Origin: Lachnospiraceae bacterium
Lineage (GTDB): Bacteria; Bacillota; Clostridia; Lachnospirales; Lachnospiraceae
Assembly: GCA_016285575.1 (NCBI GenBank)
Contig: JAEEQX010000004.1
Coordinates: forward strand, 1 to 62,190
DNA: 62,190 nucleotides
Direction: 5' to 3'
Shown here: piece after piece, positions 12,885 to 18,453 of the stretch
Position numbering within the stretch: position 1 is the first letter of the stretch
Layout of the letters: every line of letters begins with the position of its first letter
Program-made: the position numbers and the translations under genes
Notes under the pieces: generated by a model
Databases searched by the model: none
What the model was told of the DNA's origin: nothing
Seen by the model: the letters and a program-made list of their open reading frames with translations, nothing else

Positions 12885-14498
12885 ATGGAAGAAAGACCAA
12901 TACTTAAAAACAGAATTTTTTTGTATCTTACCGAGTTCTTTGCAGGAATGTCGGTAATGGCAGTTGAACTTGGCGCAAGCAGATTGCTGGCACCGTATTT
13001 TAGTTCTTCGCAGATTGTGTGGACCATCATTATCGGAACGATTATGATAGCGATGGCACTTGGCAATATATATGGCGGAAGAGCAGCGGATAAGAATCCC
13101 AATCCTGATAAACTCTATGCACGTATCATTATTGCATCAGTATGGATTGCGCTTATACCCGTGCTTGGAAAATATATAATTATTTTCATATCTGGAATTT
13201 TGATATTTACGGTTAATTCCAACTTTTTAATCATTGCAGGATTCGTTGCATGCATGGTTATATTTGTATTTCCTTTGTTCCTTCTTGGAACCGTAACGCC
13301 TTCACTAGTAAAATACACAGTTGATAATCTTGATAATAACGGTAAGCTTGTGGGCAATCTTAATGCGGCTAACACGATAGGAAGTATTATCGGTACTTTT
13401 ATTCCGACTTTCATAAGTATTCCTGCAGTAGGAACGAGCATTACGTTCTTAATCTTTGCGGCGATTCTTTTGATACTTTGTGCAATATATTTTATATCTT
13501 CAAAGATAAGTATTAAAAAGATAAAAAGACTTCCGGTAGCGATGTTTATTTTTGTTCTTTGCATTATCTTTGGACATAAGAGCAATTTTGCTTTTTGGCA
13601 AAACGATCTTCTCTACGAAGGAGAGTCCATATACAATTATCTTCAGGTTTATGAGGATGACAGAGCACTTTATTTTTCAACAAATGTTTTGTTTGGTATT
13701 CAGTCTATATATCTTAAGGAAAAGGGCTTAACCGGATATTATTATGATTTCGCAATGGCTGCTCCTTATATGAGTGATATAAAAGAAAAAGAATCAATGG
13801 ATATTCTTATTCTTGGAAATGGCACAGGAACGTATGCTACTCAGTGCAAAAGATATTTTGATACGGATTTGAATATAACGGGTGTTGAGATTGATGATAA
13901 GATTACAAAGCTCGCGAAGAAGTATTTTGATTTACCTGACGACGTAGAAGTTATTACTTATGACGGCAGAGCATTTCTTAATGCTACTGATAAAAAGTAT
14001 GATGTGATAATGGTTGATGCATATCAGGATATAACAATTCCTTTTCAGATGTCATCCGTTGAATTCTTCACTGAAGTTAAAGACCATTTAAAAGAAGATG
14101 GCGTTATGGTTGTTAACATGAATATGAAAAGTTCAGGAAAGGATAGCATAAACGATTATCTTAGTGATACGATATGCGAGGTATTTCCTTACGCATATAC
14201 ATGTGATACTTTTGGAGTAAGCAACAGAGAACTTTTCGCATCCGACAATCCTGAGATGATTGAAGTATTTAGAGAAAATGTTGCTAAAGAAGAAAATTCT
14301 CAGCTTATCTGGATGATGGGTGAAGTCGATAAGAAGCTTGTTAAATATGAGAAGGGCGAACATGTTATGACTGATGACAAGGCACCGGTTGAACTTCTTG
14401 GAATGAAAGTTATCGATGAATTAATCCAGGATGAAGTAGCTTATTACAAAGAGATATTTAAAACCCAGGGAATTAAGGGTGTAATTGATAATCTATAA
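12885..14498 (+). CDS. Membrane-bound spermidine-synthase-like methyltransferase-fold protein
   Basis: A 537-residue protein with an N-terminal polytopic membrane region (roughly seven hydrophobic helices, about residues 8-240) fused to a C-terminal aminopropyltransferase/Rossmann domain (about 290-480). The latter shows LILGNGTGTYATQ, ITGVEIDD and DVIMVDAYQD, corresponding to the SAM/dcSAM site and the aspartate loop of spermidine synthases. Such fused 'MFS/spermidine synthase' proteins are widespread, but their reaction is mostly untested, so polyamine synthesis is only a possibility. It starts 21 bases after rlmD and may share its mRNA. No terminator is visible before the pheL promoter. 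Confidence 0.82.
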   Translation: MEERPILKNRIFLYLTEFFAGMSVMAVELGASRLLAPYFSSSQIVWTIIIGTIMIAMALGNIYGGRAADKNPNPDKLYARIIIASVWIALIPVLGKYIIIFISGILIFTVNSNFLIIAGFVACMVIFVFPLFLLGTVTPSLVKYTVDNLDNNGKLVGNLNAANTIGSIIGTFIPTFISIPAVGTSITFLIFAAILLILCAIYFISSKISIKKIKRLPVAMFIFVLCIIFGHKSNFAFWQNDLLYEGESIYNYLQVYEDDRALYFSTNVLFGIQSIYLKEKGLTGYYYDFAMAAPYMSDIKEKESMDILILGNGTGTYATQCKRYFDTDLNITGVEIDDKITKLAKKYFDLPDDVEVITYDGRAFLNATDKKYDVIMVDAYQDITIPFQMSSVEFFTEVKDHLKEDGVMVVNMNMKSSGKDSINDYLSDTICEVFPYAYTCDTFGVSNRELFASDNPEMIEVFRENVAKEENSQLIWMMGEVDKKLVKYEKGEHVMTDDKAPVELLGMKVIDELIQDEVAYYKEIFKTQGIKGVIDNL

Positions 14499-14529
14499 TA
14501 ATAAAATTGTGAATTCTTTATTTTACTCG

Positions 14530-14558
14530 TTGACGGATGGTTTTTATTGTGATATTTT
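14530..14558 (+). promoter_or_regulatory. Sigma-A promoter of the phe leader/pheA/aroF operon
   Basis: TTGACG (14530-14535), 17-base spacer, TATTTT (14553-14558), preceded by a TGTG extension. The predicted transcript start near 14565 gives a leader with a 24-base 5' UTR before the Phe-rich ORF at 14589. Confidence 0.7.
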
Positions 14559-14588
14559 TACAACAGTTGTTGATTAGAGGTTAATGGT

Positions 14589-14717
14589 ATGAGCAAGAGA
14601 ACACTTGCACAATCCAATATGGCTTTATTCTTTGCCTTTTTCCAGGCTTGCGAATTTTTTGCAAGCTTTTTTGAGTTTGTCTTTTACAAAGCAAATGATA
14701 AGTGTGGACGAAGGTAA
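14589..14717 (+). CDS. pheL: Phe-rich leader peptide of the pheA-aroF operon (candidate)
   Basis: A 42-codon frame preceded by AGAGG (14576-14580) at eight bases. The peptide contains 10 Phe, at positions 14, 15, 17, 18, 23, 24, 27, 28, 30 and 32, followed by Tyr33; its core LFFAFFQ resembles the FFFAFF core of enterobacterial PheL. All Phe codons fall at 14628-14684. The stop (14715-14717) is followed 27 bases later by a strong terminator, and the next gene is prephenate dehydratase. Stalling at Phe codons when tRNA-Phe is uncharged would leave 14707-14714 free to pair with 14754-14761 and block the terminator; completion of translation to the stop would mask it. The architecture is seen directly, the mechanism is inferred. 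The ORF is not a known family. Confidence 0.78.
   Translation: MSKRTLAQSNMALFFAFFQACEFFASFFEFVFYKANDKCGRR
14646..14672 (+). promoter_or_regulatory. Hairpin plus T tract inside the leader-peptide coding region
   Basis: GCTTGCGAA (14646-14654) and TTTGCAAGC (14658-14666) form a nine-base stem with one G-U pair and a TTT loop, followed immediately by six T (14667-14672). It overlaps Phe codons 23-28. It could be the 1:2 pause hairpin of an attenuator, or a second terminator active when the leader is untranslated. Confidence 0.55.
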
Positions 14718-14761
14718 GGTGTGAATAGAAAGAATGGTTATTTCAAGCCCTGTCCTTTGTC
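14707..14761 (+). promoter_or_regulatory. Candidate antiterminator pairing
   Basis: GACGAAGG (14707-14714), which overlaps the last leader codons up to the base before the stop, is complementary to CCTTTGTC (14754-14761) with one G-U wobble. The second segment occupies the end of the 5' arm and the loop of the terminator, so the two structures are mutually exclusive. An alternative eight-pair helix between 14643-14650 and 14744-14752 is also possible. Confidence 0.5.
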
Positions 14762-14775
14762 GGACAGGGCTTTTT
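14745..14775 (+). terminator. Attenuator terminator upstream of pheA
   Basis: AAGCCCTGTCC (14745-14755) and GGACAGGGCTT (14762-14772) form a perfect 11-base stem with a six-base loop and a TTTTT tail. It lies between the Phe-rich leader ORF and pheA, in the transcribed leader rather than after a gene. Confidence 0.92.
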
Positions 14776-14779
14776 ATAT

Positions 14780-14862
14780 GCGCACTCCCGCACGAGGAAA
14801 TTTGCTGCTACGCAGCATGCGGGAGGCGCGGCGAGTAGGGCAAGATAAATCTTCCCTACTCG
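14780..14862. repeat. Two-hairpin palindromic intergenic element
   Basis: A structured GC-rich block. The first hairpin pairs GCGC (14780-14783) and CTCCCGCA (14785-14792) with TGCGGGAG and GCGC (14818-14829), and encloses a six-base TGCTGC/GCAGCA hairpin (14803-14817). The second pairs CGAGTAGGG (14832-14840) with CCCTACTCG (14854-14862), with an inner AAGA/TCTT extension across one bulge. Pieces recur at 4650-4688. It lies between the attenuator and the pheA ribosome site, so it is transcribed when the attenuator is read through. It resembles REP/BIME-like intergenic elements; copy number in the genome is unknown. Confidence 0.65.
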
Positions 14863-14890
14863 ATTAAAAATGCTCAAGGAGAATAAAAAC

Positions 14891-15730
14891 ATGGACAAGA
14901 AGAATCGAAGACACGTTGCTTACAGCGGAGTTAAAGGAGCATATGCACACATAGCTGCTTCCAAGATATTTACAGATGAAGAATATATCTCCAAGCCTTC
15001 GTTTAAGAGTGTATACGATGCAGTAGAAAACGAAGAATGCGAATACGGCGTTCTGCCAATCGAGAACAGTTTCGCAGGAGACGTTGCACAGGTTATGGAT
15101 CTTCTTTATTTTGGAAACCTTTATATCATCGGTATATATGAGATGCCTATTAAACATTGTTTACTCGGAATTCCTTCTTCAAACATCGAAGATATAAAAG
15201 AAGTATTGAGTCATCCTCAAGCACTTGATCAGTGTGCTGAATTCATACAAAAGAATAATTTATCTCAAAACATTGCGGTCAATACAGCGGTTGCAGCAAA
15301 AAGTATCTCAGAGAAAAACGATCCTTCTTTTGCAGCTATAGCAAGTAGAGAAACAGCAAAAATATATGGCCTTAAGATATTGGCCTCGGACATTCATACT
15401 AGTAACGATAACATGACGAGGTTCGTAGTAATATCTAAAAAGAATGAGCCTCTTATCGATGAAAAGAATGCATTCTCGCTGATTCTTACAGTTAAGAACG
15501 AAGCAGGTGCTTTTACAAAAGCGGTTGCAGCGATTGGTGATAACGGATTCAACATGAGGGCAATACGAAGCAGACCGGCAAAATCTCTCGCTTGGAAATA
15601 TTATTTTTACATTGAGGGTGAAGGTAATATCGAGAGTGAGATGGGAAGACGAATGAAAGAAGAATTGTCGAAAAACTGTGAGACAGTTAGAGTGCTTGGA
15701 AATTACGCCGAGGATATTGTTCTTGATTAA
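14891..15730 (+). CDS. pheA: Prephenate dehydratase
   Basis: Converts prephenate to phenylpyruvate, the committed step of phenylalanine synthesis. The 279 residues comprise a PDT domain (about 8-185), beginning VAYSGVKGAYAHIAA and containing the TRFVVI motif that carries the catalytic Thr, and a C-terminal ACT domain (about 195-275). The ACT domain has the feedback sites GAFTKAVA (GALV-like) and IRSRP (ESRP-like). It is monofunctional, with no chorismate mutase domain. The ATG at 14891 is chosen over one seven codons upstream because AAGGAGAA (14876-14883) is properly spaced. Expression appears controlled by the upstream leader; DAHP synthase follows in the same direction without a terminator. 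Confidence 0.94.
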   Translation: MDKKNRRHVAYSGVKGAYAHIAASKIFTDEEYISKPSFKSVYDAVENEECEYGVLPIENSFAGDVAQVMDLLYFGNLYIIGIYEMPIKHCLLGIPSSNIEDIKEVLSHPQALDQCAEFIQKNNLSQNIAVNTAVAAKSISEKNDPSFAAIASRETAKIYGLKILASDIHTSNDNMTRFVVISKKNEPLIDEKNAFSLILTVKNEAGAFTKAVAAIGDNGFNMRAIRSRPAKSLAWKYYFYIEGEGNIESEMGRRMKEELSKNCETVRVLGNYAEDIVLD

Positions 15731-15838
15731 TTAAATTCGTTAATCAAAAAGATTTTATGAATATAAAAAGTAGAAATACTTATAGATAAAAAACAAAAAA
15801 GATTATTGAAAAAGATAAAAATAAGGATGGTGACAGAC

Positions 15839-16873
15839 ATGAGTATGGAATTTGGACGTAAGCTTGCATTACCTGCTGAGGTTAAGGAGATGTATCCCCT
15901 CAAGCTTAAAATGAATGAGATTATTGAAAAAAGAAACGCACAGATTAAGCGTATCTTTTCAGGCGAAGATAAGAGAATACTTCTTATTATCGGACCCTGT
16001 AGTGCTGATAATGAAGACAGCGTTATTGATTATGTGTTAAGACTACGAGATATTCAGGAAAAGGTAGAAGATAGAATTTTAATAGTTCCGAGAATCTATA
16101 CCAATAAGCCCAGAACAACAGGTGCAGGATATAAGGGTATGCTTCATCAGCCCAATCCTAATGAGAAGCCGGATATGTTCAAGGGTATTATTGCAACAAG
16201 ACATATTCACTTAAGAGCTGTTGAAGAAACAGGTTTCTCATGTGCCGATGAGATGTTATATCCTGAGAATTATCAGTACTTGGAGGATGTGCTTGGATAT
16301 GTTGCGGTAGGCGCAAGAAGTGTTGAAGATCAACAGCATAGATTGGTAGCAAGTGGAATCAGTGTTCCTGTAGGAATGAAGAATCCAACATCCGGTGATT
16401 ATTCCATTATGATGAACGCCATACTTGCAGCGCAGAATCCTCATACATTTATATACAGAGGCTGGGAAGTTCATTCATCAGGTAACCCTTATGCGCATAC
16501 TATATTAAGAGGTTATACCAACAAGCATGGTCAATCACTTCCTAACTATCATTACGAAGATTTAATCAGATTATGTGAAGATTATAAAAAAGCTGACTAT
16601 AATAATCCTTCAGTCATCATTGATACTAACCATGGCAACTCCGGAAAGAATCCTTTTGAACAGCCCAGAATCATCAAGGAAGTTTTGCACGCATGCAGAC
16701 ATAATGAAGAGATAGGAAAACTTGTTAAGGGATTCATGGTTGAGAGTTATATCGAAGATGGCAATCAAAAGATTGGTGAAGGCGTGTATGGTAAGTCCAT
16801 TACCGATGCATGTCTTGGATGGGAAAAGAGTGAAAAACTCATCCTCGAGATGGCAGATTTAATCAACGTATAA
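15839..16873 (+). CDS. aroF: 3-deoxy-7-phosphoheptulonate (DAHP) synthase, class I
   Basis: Condenses phosphoenolpyruvate and erythrose 4-phosphate to DAHP, the first step of the shikimate pathway. The 344 residues show the class I AroF/G/H signatures: IIGPCSADNE near residue 54, PRTTGAGYKG, GARSVEDQQHR, DTNHGNSGKNP and the C-terminal GVYGKSITDACLGWE. Start codons at 15806 (TTG), 15827 and 15839 are in frame; 15839 is preferred because AAGGATGGTG (15823-15832) is well spaced for it. The short N-terminal extension is the usual feedback-site region; which aromatic amino acid inhibits it cannot be told. It follows pheA by 108 A/T-rich bases and is probably under the same attenuator. Confidence 0.93.
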   Translation: MSMEFGRKLALPAEVKEMYPLKLKMNEIIEKRNAQIKRIFSGEDKRILLIIGPCSADNEDSVIDYVLRLRDIQEKVEDRILIVPRIYTNKPRTTGAGYKGMLHQPNPNEKPDMFKGIIATRHIHLRAVEETGFSCADEMLYPENYQYLEDVLGYVAVGARSVEDQQHRLVASGISVPVGMKNPTSGDYSIMMNAILAAQNPHTFIYRGWEVHSSGNPYAHTILRGYTNKHGQSLPNYHYEDLIRLCEDYKKADYNNPSVIIDTNHGNSGKNPFEQPRIIKEVLHACRHNEEIGKLVKGFMVESYIEDGNQKIGEGVYGKSITDACLGWEKSEKLILEMADLINV

Positions 16874-16904
16874 TGTCTTGTAAAATTGAACCAAAAAAAG
16901 AAAC

Positions 16905-16932
16905 TTGCATTCGACGTGAAATAATGTATAAT
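16905..16932 (+). promoter_or_regulatory. Sigma-A promoter for rho
   Basis: TTGCAT (16905-16910), 16-base spacer, TATAAT (16927-16932); about 93 bases of leader precede the rho start, with no obvious hairpin terminator. Confidence 0.7.
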
Positions 16933-17031
16933 ATCAAGTAGCGGTTTAAAAATTTCTATTTACAGTCTTAATATAGGTTTTCACGATATCAGATTTTTTT
17001 CCCTTACTTGATTAATGAATATGGAGGTTGT

Positions 17032-18453
17032 ATGCGAGAAAAATATGAGACTTTGACATTAGCTGTCTTAAAAGATCTTTGCAAGGATATTGGCATTAAG
17101 GGTTATTATTCTATGTCAAAAGATCAGATAATTGATATCCTTGTTGAAAAAGAAAAAGAAGAGAAGGAGCAAAAAGCTAATAATACTAATAATGCTGCTC
17201 CCGTAGAATATACTGAGAAAAAAGTTGTAGAGAAAGCCGAGCTTCCTGAAGAGCCCGCTCAGAATGCGCGTTCCAAAGCAGTTGTCGGAAGCGGTGGATT
17301 CGAGCAGGAATATGATCCTAATCTTGATTCTCATAAGAGCGCCCATGGCATTGTAGAGATAATGTCAGACGGATTCGGCTTTATTAGAAGCAATAATTAT
17401 CTCTCCGGCGATAATGATGTATATATTTCTCCCGGACAGATAAAAAGATTCGGATTAAGAACAGGTGATATAGTAACCGGTAACATCAAGGTTAAGGGAG
17501 AGAAAGAAAAGTTCTCAGCTCTTCTGTATATAACCAAGATTAACGGAATGGCTCCCGAAGTTGTAGCCAAGAGAGCTAAGTTCGAAGAGATGACACCGAT
17601 TTTCCCTGACAAGAAGATCAAGTTAGAGATTCCCGGTGCTCCCGTATCCATGAGAATCATGGATCTTATCTGTCCTGTAGGTAAGGGCCAGAGAGGTATG
17701 ATAGTATCCCAGCCTAAGGCAGGTAAGACAACTCTATTAAAAGATATTGCTCACAGTATTTTATATTCCAATAAAGAGATGTGCATGATCATCCTTTTGA
17801 TTGATGAGCGTCCTGAGGAAGTTACAGATATTAAGAGTGCTATCAAAGGTGAAAATGTTGAGGTAATCTATTCAACATTTGATGAGACTCCCGAACATCA
17901 TAAGAAAGTTGCAGAGATGACAGTTGAACGTGCAAGAAGACTTGTTGAGTCCAAGAAGGATGTAATCATCTTACTCGACTCCATCACAAGACTTACACGT
18001 GCTTACAACCAGGTTATTCCTCCTTCAGGAAGAACATTATCAGGTGGTCTTGATCCTGCAGCGCTTCATATGCCCAAGAAGTTCTTTGGCGCAGCCAGAA
18101 ATATGAAAGAGGGCGGCAGCTTGACAATCCTTGCTACTGCTTTGGTTGATACAGGTTCCAAGATGGACGACGTTGTATACGAGGAGTTCAAGGGAACAGG
18201 TAACATGGAACTTGTTCTTGACAGAAAGCTTTCAGAGAAGAGAGTATTCCCTGCTATCGATATTCCCAAGTCCGGTACAAGAAATGAGCATCTCTTGCTT
18301 ACTTCTGAAGAACTTGCGGCTATCACTTCATTAAGAAGAGGCTTCAATGGTCTTAAGCCCGAAGAGGCAGTAGATGAGGTTATAGACTTATTCTCCAAGA
18401 CCAAGAATAACGACGAATTCGTTAATACAATTAATAAAATGAAGCGTTTTTAA
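17032..18453 (+). CDS. rho: Transcription termination factor Rho
   Basis: Hexameric RNA-dependent ATPase that terminates transcription. The 473-residue protein has a Rho N-terminal helical domain (about 1-40), a short Lys/Glu/Asn-rich insert (about 40-75), a cold-shock-type RNA-binding domain starting HGIVEIMSDGFGFIRS, and the RecA-like ATPase with Walker A QPKAGKTT, Walker B VIILLDSITRL and the Q/R-loop region GGSLTILATALV. ATG 17032 is preceded by GGAGG at four to five bases; an upstream in-frame TTG lacks a site. The order rho-rpmE-DUF1385-prmC-prfA is typical of Clostridia. Confidence 0.96.
   Translation: MREKYETLTLAVLKDLCKDIGIKGYYSMSKDQIIDILVEKEKEEKEQKANNTNNAAPVEYTEKKVVEKAELPEEPAQNARSKAVVGSGGFEQEYDPNLDSHKSAHGIVEIMSDGFGFIRSNNYLSGDNDVYISPGQIKRFGLRTGDIVTGNIKVKGEKEKFSALLYITKINGMAPEVVAKRAKFEEMTPIFPDKKIKLEIPGAPVSMRIMDLICPVGKGQRGMIVSQPKAGKTTLLKDIAHSILYSNKEMCMIILLIDERPEEVTDIKSAIKGENVEVIYSTFDETPEHHKKVAEMTVERARRLVESKKDVIILLDSITRLTRAYNQVIPPSGRTLSGGLDPAALHMPKKFFGAARNMKEGGSLTILATALVDTGSKMDDVVYEEFKGTGNMELVLDRKLSEKRVFPAIDIPKSGTRNEHLLLTSEELAAITSLRRGFNGLKPEEAVDEVIDLFSKTKNNDEFVNTINKMKRF

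Follow-up and report, generated by a model that had tools for sequence, protein, structure and literature searches.

The window, by which we mean the whole stretch of DNA that was analysed (62,190 nucleotides of a Lachnospiraceae bacterium, contig JAEEQX010000004.1), contains a prephenate dehydratase gene, pheA, followed by a DAHP synthase gene, aroF, with a short phenylalanine-rich open reading frame (ORF) and a terminator ahead of them. A fused MFS/spermidine synthase gene lies upstream of this locus, and rho comes after aroF. The features of the locus, all on the forward strand, are as follows.

14530-14558, +, promoter-like site TTGACG-17-TATTTT, with hexamers at 14530-14535 and 14553-14558
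14576-14580, +, AGAGG, resembling a ribosome-binding site, upstream of the ATG at 14589
14589-14717, +, leader ORF of 42 codons, MSKRTLAQSNMALFFAFFQACEFFASFFEFVFYKANDKCGRR, with homologous leaders in relatives
14628-14684, +, Phe-codon block, 10 Phe in 19 codons by codon count, putative stalling site
14630-14643, +, segment 1, CTTTGCCTTTTTCC, in the Phe codons, pairs with segment 2 (from the pairing comparison)
14644-14668, +, terminator-like hairpin within the leader ORF, T's after it; a pause or early stop here is a proposal
14706-14719, +, segment 2, GGACGAAGGTAAGG, overlaps the stop codon at 14715-14717; antiterminator core 14707-14714
14754-14761, +, segment 3, CCTTTGTC, pairs with 14707-14714; last two bases of the terminator 5' arm and the whole terminator loop
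14745-14775, +, intrinsic terminator, stem-loop 14745-14772 and T tail; its 3' arm is segment 4
14891-15730, +, pheA, prephenate dehydratase, from ATG 14891; Pfam PDT match above cut-off
15839-16873, +, aroF, DAHP synthase of the AroFGH type, from the in-frame ATG 15839

The original prediction, made from the letters of this DNA, had listed the promoter, ribosome site, ORF, stop codon, antiterminator candidate, terminator, pheA and aroF, and each of these was found where it had been placed. Three features go beyond that list: the strand in the Phe codons at 14630-14643, the hairpin inside the ORF at 14644-14668 and a repeat at 14832-14862. The promoter-like site matches the consensus at 9 of 12 positions, with a 17-nt spacer and TG ahead of the second hexamer. 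Six such sites were found in 14480-17100 compared with a shuffle mean of 9.0, and because they are no rarer than in shuffled sequence the match is weak on its own. TTGAC-like boxes were seen by eye at a similar distance upstream of several leaders in related genomes (clades A and B, below). When folded, the leader RNA (14565-14780) was more stable than 200 of 200 shuffles (z -4.3). The terminator, with 11 pairs, a loop of 6, a T tail and a stability of -20.6 kcal/mol, stands between the leader and the first structural gene, as expected of an attenuator. The repeat, a palindrome (CGAGTAGGG...CCCTACTCG) between the terminator and pheA, occurs at 6 places in the genome and is possibly a small mobile palindromic repeat; by eye, a similar sequence lies between terminator and pheA at L090, a locus from another genus.

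All ten Phe codons of the leader (8 TTT and 2 TTC) fall in codons 14-32. Given a Phe background of 4.0% in the window's long ORFs, the binomial probability of at least 10 Phe in 19 codons is 7.5e-10. Dinucleotide shuffles of 14500-14890 produced an ORF with 10 Phe in 20 codons in 0 of 1000 trials and one with 8 in 3 of 1000, and on either strand of the window the leader is the sole ATG ORF of 15-80 amino acids that combines at least 8 Phe in 20 with a Shine-Dalgarno-like site. A small ORF that looks translated and is enriched in codons for the amino acid its operon makes is a hallmark of attenuators, and this one fits that description.

Conservation of the leader ORF within the genus

We searched 31 genomes of the same genus and found a match to the window's dehydratase in 28 of them, at 29 loci (one genome being split over two contigs). 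A leader with a terminator hairpin lies upstream of pheA at 20 of the 29 loci, and 22 of the 28 genomes have an aromatic leader ORF ahead of pheA or its operon. Clade A (L002-L009), to which the window belongs, has a stand-alone dehydratase followed by aroF; clade B (L010-L020 and L026) has a longer enzyme reading frame. L021/L022 (L124, L125) carry a different leader, MKKLITKANEYFYFYFDFSRFYFGGYYFGANES, in which Phe and Tyr codons alternate; it is followed by a terminator and lies ahead of tyrA-pheA-aroF. L023 encodes the window's enzyme type yet shows no leader within 6 kb, and the other five genus genomes, with 33-35% identity, have no leader near pheA. Alignment with the relatives revealed that the ORF and its Phe codons are conserved, as is the terminator; the lack of conservation that the original prediction had regarded as decisive against it was not found.

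Seven clade A leaders (the window's left out) and 12 clade B leaders were compared as coding sequences. Third codon positions differ most, accounting for 149 of 336 pairwise differences in clade A and 618 of 1355 in clade B. At the aromatic columns, an aromatic residue is retained in 70 of 77 cells in clade A and 136 of 144 in clade B, where F and Y are exchanged in four of the columns. Nonsynonymous codon differences outnumber synonymous ones (161 versus 60 in clade A; 638 versus 229 in clade B), so the leader peptide as such is not under tight constraint. The second half of the clade A leaders L003-L009 contains Tyr and two Trp codons (YWRW) that are absent from the window's leader, and clade A leaders perhaps sense all three aromatic amino acids. 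We also considered whether a leader's residues follow the genes of its operon, Tyr going with tyrA and Trp with aroF, and rejected this as inconsistent across loci: L021/L022 fit, with F and Y before tyrA-pheA-aroF, whereas clade A leaders have two Trp codons and the window's has none, both ahead of pheA-aroF.

These comparisons bear on the possibility that the ORF encodes a small functional protein, such as a membrane peptide, in which case the terminator would merely end its transcript and pheA would be regulated separately. Non-aromatic parts of the peptide are indeed conserved within clades (SKRNAQLN, SKLNN), and a terminator does follow the ORF. However, the conserved FFQ/FIQA residues sit in segment 1, so pairing accounts for them at least partly; the aromatic run, the stop-region pairing and the terminator are for the most part retained even though the peptides vary widely from genus to genus; and no second copy of the leader was found in the window's genome at E values up to 10. 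We regard a small functional protein as very improbable, though marginally less so than the alternatives discussed below.

Alternative pairings around the stop codon

The eight bases GACGAAGG (14707-14714) directly adjoin the stop codon at 14715-14717 and form 8 of 8 possible pairs with segment 3 (14754-14761), including one G-U. Pairing of segment 1 with segment 2 (1:2) and of segment 2 with segment 3 (2:3) is mutually exclusive, and 2:3 in turn opposes the terminator pairing 3:4. We measured the specificity of 2:3 in one representative of each of 17 groups, setting each stop region against its own and all the others' terminator arm and loop. Cognate combinations averaged -14.6 kcal/mol compared with -10.6 kcal/mol for mismatched ones, and 0 of 20,000 permutations were as strong; scored by the longest contiguous helix among the same representatives, 8 of 20,000 were as strong, and the 1:2 pairing gave the same figure, 8 of 20,000. 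No special 2:3 pairing was detected in L083, L090 and L102 (ranks 17, 12 and 11 of 17), and 1:2 ranked 10th or lower in L083, L045, L047, L102, L100 and L103. A per-locus shuffle test gave a mean z of -2.0 over 34 loci, many rows of which are dependent because they come from clades A and B; single loci were mostly of moderate significance (0.017 for the window). L003, L008 and L097, whose terminators were missed by the scan, were left out of both the shuffle and the 17-representative tests, although the conserved hairpin is present in L003 and L008. The 17-representative test was run outside L046, L084, L088, L089, L044, L021/L022 and the class loci. Conserved and mutually exclusive 1:2, 2:3 and 3:4 pairings, a second hallmark of attenuators, are present at these loci, though not in every relative.

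Base changes in the antiterminator were followed in 8 sequences of clade A with the window, 12 of clade B and 3 of Treponema. No pair is broken in any of the 23 sequences, the strands having been located by patterns that admit only the tabulated forms and that caught all 20 genus sequences. Pairs changed on both sides occur in the window and in Treponema. In the window and clade A, pair 3 is U-A in six sequences, U-G in L003 and C-G in the window, and pair 4 is A-U in L004 and G-U in the other seven; in clade B, one pair is split between U-A (five sequences) and U-G (seven), and one Treponema pair is C-G, but A-U in L044. The loop register differs between clades A and B. In clade A the stop codon begins with the U of pair 3 (GGA TGA AGG; TAA in L004). 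In the window it is replaced by C, the stop is lost, the matching loop A has become G, and the next in-frame TAA lies two codons on. L003 has the wobble intermediate at pair 3; in the window's line the loop may have changed first, giving a wobble, and the stop codon may then have been lost by a compensatory change. Taken across the relatives, sequence comparison establishes that the locus has the ORF with its aromatic codons, the terminator, and both the 1:2 and the 2:3 pairing.

The best local hairpin of each of 13 leaders was compared with 60 codon shuffles of that leader. At most 4 shuffles were as stable in six of the 13 (L002, L005, L082, L099, L100 and L104), and the hairpin was less unusual or ordinary in L010, L037, L038, L090, L092, L098 and L106. 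Some of these internal hairpins read as terminators by sequence. We propose only that the internal hairpin might pause the polymerase or cause early termination.

Distribution beyond the genus

A search of 397 genomes of the family identified at least 27 loci in other genera with the window's enzyme type (45-53% identity, L082-L108), leaving out a partial match, G309, from another genus (51% over 180 residues). Contig edges truncate L087 and L105; with these two uncounted, 25 loci were evaluable. An aromatic leader with a scanned terminator was found at 11 of the 25 (L082, L083, L090, L092, L098, L099, L100, L102, L103, L104 and L106, of which L092 and L098 belong to one genus), and three more (L084, L089 and L097) have an aromatic leader with a terminator-like sequence recognized by eye, bringing the count to 14 of 25. 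Two candidates were scored as no leader, namely L088, with a 14-amino-acid aromatic ORF and no terminator, and L086, where the candidate lies 1.5 kb upstream with a reverse gene between. By contrast, scanning 1 kb upstream of the family's ordinary-type pheA loci, which have 34-40% identity to the window's enzyme, yielded a convincing leader in 0 of 30 (11 of 25 versus 0 of 30, Fisher P 3.7e-5). One ordinary-type locus, L051, has a 60-amino-acid ORF with 7 aromatic residues in 20, but it lacks a ribosome site and its hairpin is borderline; we took it as chance. The absence from ordinary-type loci led us to reject the notion that such leaders are general to Lachnospiraceae pheA. It also upholds, for that enzyme type, the earlier suggestion that the mechanism is uncommon in this lineage; the suggestion fails for the window's pheA type, with which the leader recurs.

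Outside the family, 246 genomes of the class contained 15 loci with the enzyme type, and 4 of these (L129, L132, L139 and L140) have a leader and a terminator. The leaders of L132, L139 and L140, from two other families of the class, belong to a leader family of their own (for example, FSFSVVFYFGYAYFAMKKLLVS), whose terminator loop contains GTAAC. Among 13 named loci, 11 were scanned (L048 and L049, from Thermoplasma, were left out) and 7 of the 11 have a leader. The terminator was found by the scan in L037 (a Lachnospiraceae metagenome-assembled genome, MAG), L038/L039 (Spirochaetaceae and Treponema MAGs) and L045/L046/L047 (Clostridia MAGs), and by eye in L044 (a Treponema MAG). L037 shares 64% with the window in PheA and 86% in AroF, and is the nearest row to it in the tree. 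L038, L039 and L044 have the same pheA type, and their stop region pairs into the terminator loop TTTATC, like that of clade A; these leaders could reflect either horizontal transfer or convergence.

We placed the leader label on a quick tree of 88 dehydratases, which leaves out L135, L087, L105, L030 and 21 of the 30 ordinary-type loci. At least 19 changes are needed, compared with a mean of 29.5 for shuffled labels, and 0 of 500 shuffles were as low. Leader presence is thus clustered but patchy, with near-copies aiding the clustering, and simple descent from a single origin was rejected given the 19 changes.

Attenuation model and its relation to known systems

We put at about 93% the probability that a ribosome-mediated transcription attenuator controls pheA-aroF. 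The original prediction had read the region as an attenuator governed by ribosome stalling at Phe codons, and the comparisons strengthen that reading, since relatives conserve the start, the stop, the aromatic codons, the terminator and the mutually exclusive pairings. The leader ORF would be translated while the leader RNA is still being made. With ample Phe-tRNA, the ribosome would reach the stop codon and cover segment 2 (14706-14719), the terminator at 14745-14772 would form and transcription would end near 14775. When Phe-tRNA is short, the ribosome would stall on a Phe codon in 14628-14684, so that segment 1 could not hold segment 2; the freed segment 2 would capture the terminator loop and the top of the 5' arm (14754-14761) before the 3' arm is made, and with this antiterminator formed transcription would continue into pheA-aroF. 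Stalling, read-through and a response to Phe are expected from the architecture together with what is known of the E. coli operons.

We modelled this at equilibrium, with an assumed ribosome footprint, for the RNA made just before the terminator 3' arm, placing the ribosome at each codon of 8 loci. In this model, the antiterminator of the window has a probability of 1.00 with the ribosome at every leader Phe codon and of 0.46 with no ribosome; the seven other loci give 0.59-0.98 with no ribosome, and so thermodynamics alone does not predict termination in the absence of translation. A ribosome near the stop covers the strand or frees it of pairing in 7 of the 8 loci; at L100, the model's antiterminator remains free even with the ribosome at the stop.

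A different sensor would be a T-box or another ligand-binding riboswitch that responds to uncharged tRNA-Phe or an aromatic metabolite, the Phe-rich ORF being incidental. T-boxes do exist in this genome, with six matches, three of them above the Rfam cut-off, and one over the cut-off lies directly upstream of pheS (L033, G000:C127:12560-12824). The matches upstream of thrS-, trpE- and TrpB-like genes fall short of the cut-off, with E from 2e-18 to 2e-15, and the remaining ones precede a 2-isopropylmalate-synthase-like gene and one AMP-binding gene (named by eye). No T-box or Rfam leader reached the gathering score, however, in the window, 20 leader-type loci or 16 further upstream stretches, and the Phe-codon run is far beyond chance. 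The only gathering-score match in the window is a bacterial class A RNase P RNA at 1-246, cut at the window edge, which agrees with the earlier statement that no T-box lies near pheA. Within 14500-14880 nothing reached the gathering score, weak listings up to E 10 were unrelated, and the enterobacterial Phe leader family gave no match at E up to 10. T-box leaders (RF00230) likewise sense a shortage of charged tRNA and act by antitermination, but their RNA binds tRNA directly. We consider such a riboswitch at pheA exceedingly unlikely. A protein-binding attenuator of the PyrR or TRAP kind, acting on the terminator with no part for translation, is just as hard to credit: the terminator-antiterminator pair resembles such leaders and PyrR was listed at 14676-14779, but at 21.4 bits, far below the cut-off of 54, and the antiterminator is positioned at the leader stop codon with aromatic codons that match the gene's product.

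Control of Phe biosynthesis by ribosome stalling on a leader peptide is best known from E. coli. The E. coli pheL-pheA region (NC_000913) shares with the window a Phe-rich leader, an antiterminator near the leader stop, an intrinsic terminator and a prephenate dehydratase gene. It differs in sequence and in the length of the leader, 15 codons in pheL compared with 42 here, and the terminator-like hairpin within the ORF is present here, unlike in pheL. The pheL antiterminator is an 8-bp helix that begins 1 nt past the stop and takes in 7 arm bases and 1 of 5 loop bases, whereas that of the window takes in 2 arm bases and 6 of 6 loop bases, the search range for E. coli being slightly different. 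Across 18 loci the loop is fully covered in 9 (L002, L005, L010, L038, L092, L098, L100, L129 and L139), partly in 3 (L104, L106 and L132) and not in 6 (L037, L082, L103, L124, L125 and L140), so this loop-centred design is common but not universal. The whole stop codon lies within the antiterminator helix in L005, L010 and L098 and, by eye, in L004 and L044.

More tentatively, and with somewhat less than even confidence, we suggest that these leaders represent a distinct and widely shared attenuator design. Its antiterminator would be built around the leader stop and capture the terminator loop, and a ribosome terminating translation would sit exactly on this antiterminator strand; its ORF-internal hairpin would pace the polymerase or end untranslated transcripts; it would accompany one pheA type through Lachnospiraceae, other Clostridia and Treponema; and in the window's line the loop wobble, as in L003, would have preceded the compensatory loss of the stop. 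An antiterminator placed at the stop and centred on the loop leads to a testable statement on how few pairs suffice to block a strong terminator, and would explain the conserved non-Phe residues of the peptide as RNA constraints.

Related elements have been described in the open-licence literature. The element uORFC-13-1 is a Phe-coding short ORF before aroF in Acholeplasma (PMC8632094). Compared by its description there, it resembles the window in that a short Phe-coding ORF and a terminator precede a gene of the aromatic pathway in a low-GC organism related to Firmicutes, but differs in being described as confined to Acholeplasma and unassigned environmental sequences, in preceding aroF only and in having at least 1 Phe (PMC8632094). 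His leader peptides were reported in bacilli by Naville and Gautheret in 2010, who state that to their knowledge no leader peptides had been shown before beyond Proteobacteria and Actinobacteria (PMC2965389). In later work, His leaders are predicted in several Firmicutes (PMC9413887) and a Leu-rich leader is supported in Staphylococcus aureus (PMC5794164); these are leader-peptide attenuators of the same phylum, but for other amino acids and operons, not pheA (PMC2965389, PMC9413887, PMC5794164). Our search of open-licence literature turned up no leader peptide ahead of pheA in either Clostridia or Treponema. The class of attenuator is known, and within that literature the lineage, the gene and the loop-centred arrangement appear to be undescribed. 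What the evidence supports well is a classical mechanism found in a lineage where it was not expected and fitted with a distinct antiterminator design; it does not point to a new kind of regulation.

On this reading, attenuation by a Phe leader peptide would also operate in Lachnospiraceae, other Clostridia and Treponema, for which one would otherwise assume T-boxes or nothing at all. Because such leaders are short ORFs without Rfam matches, annotation easily overlooks them. The window's genome would then hold two solutions side by side, a T-box at pheS and a leader peptide at pheA.
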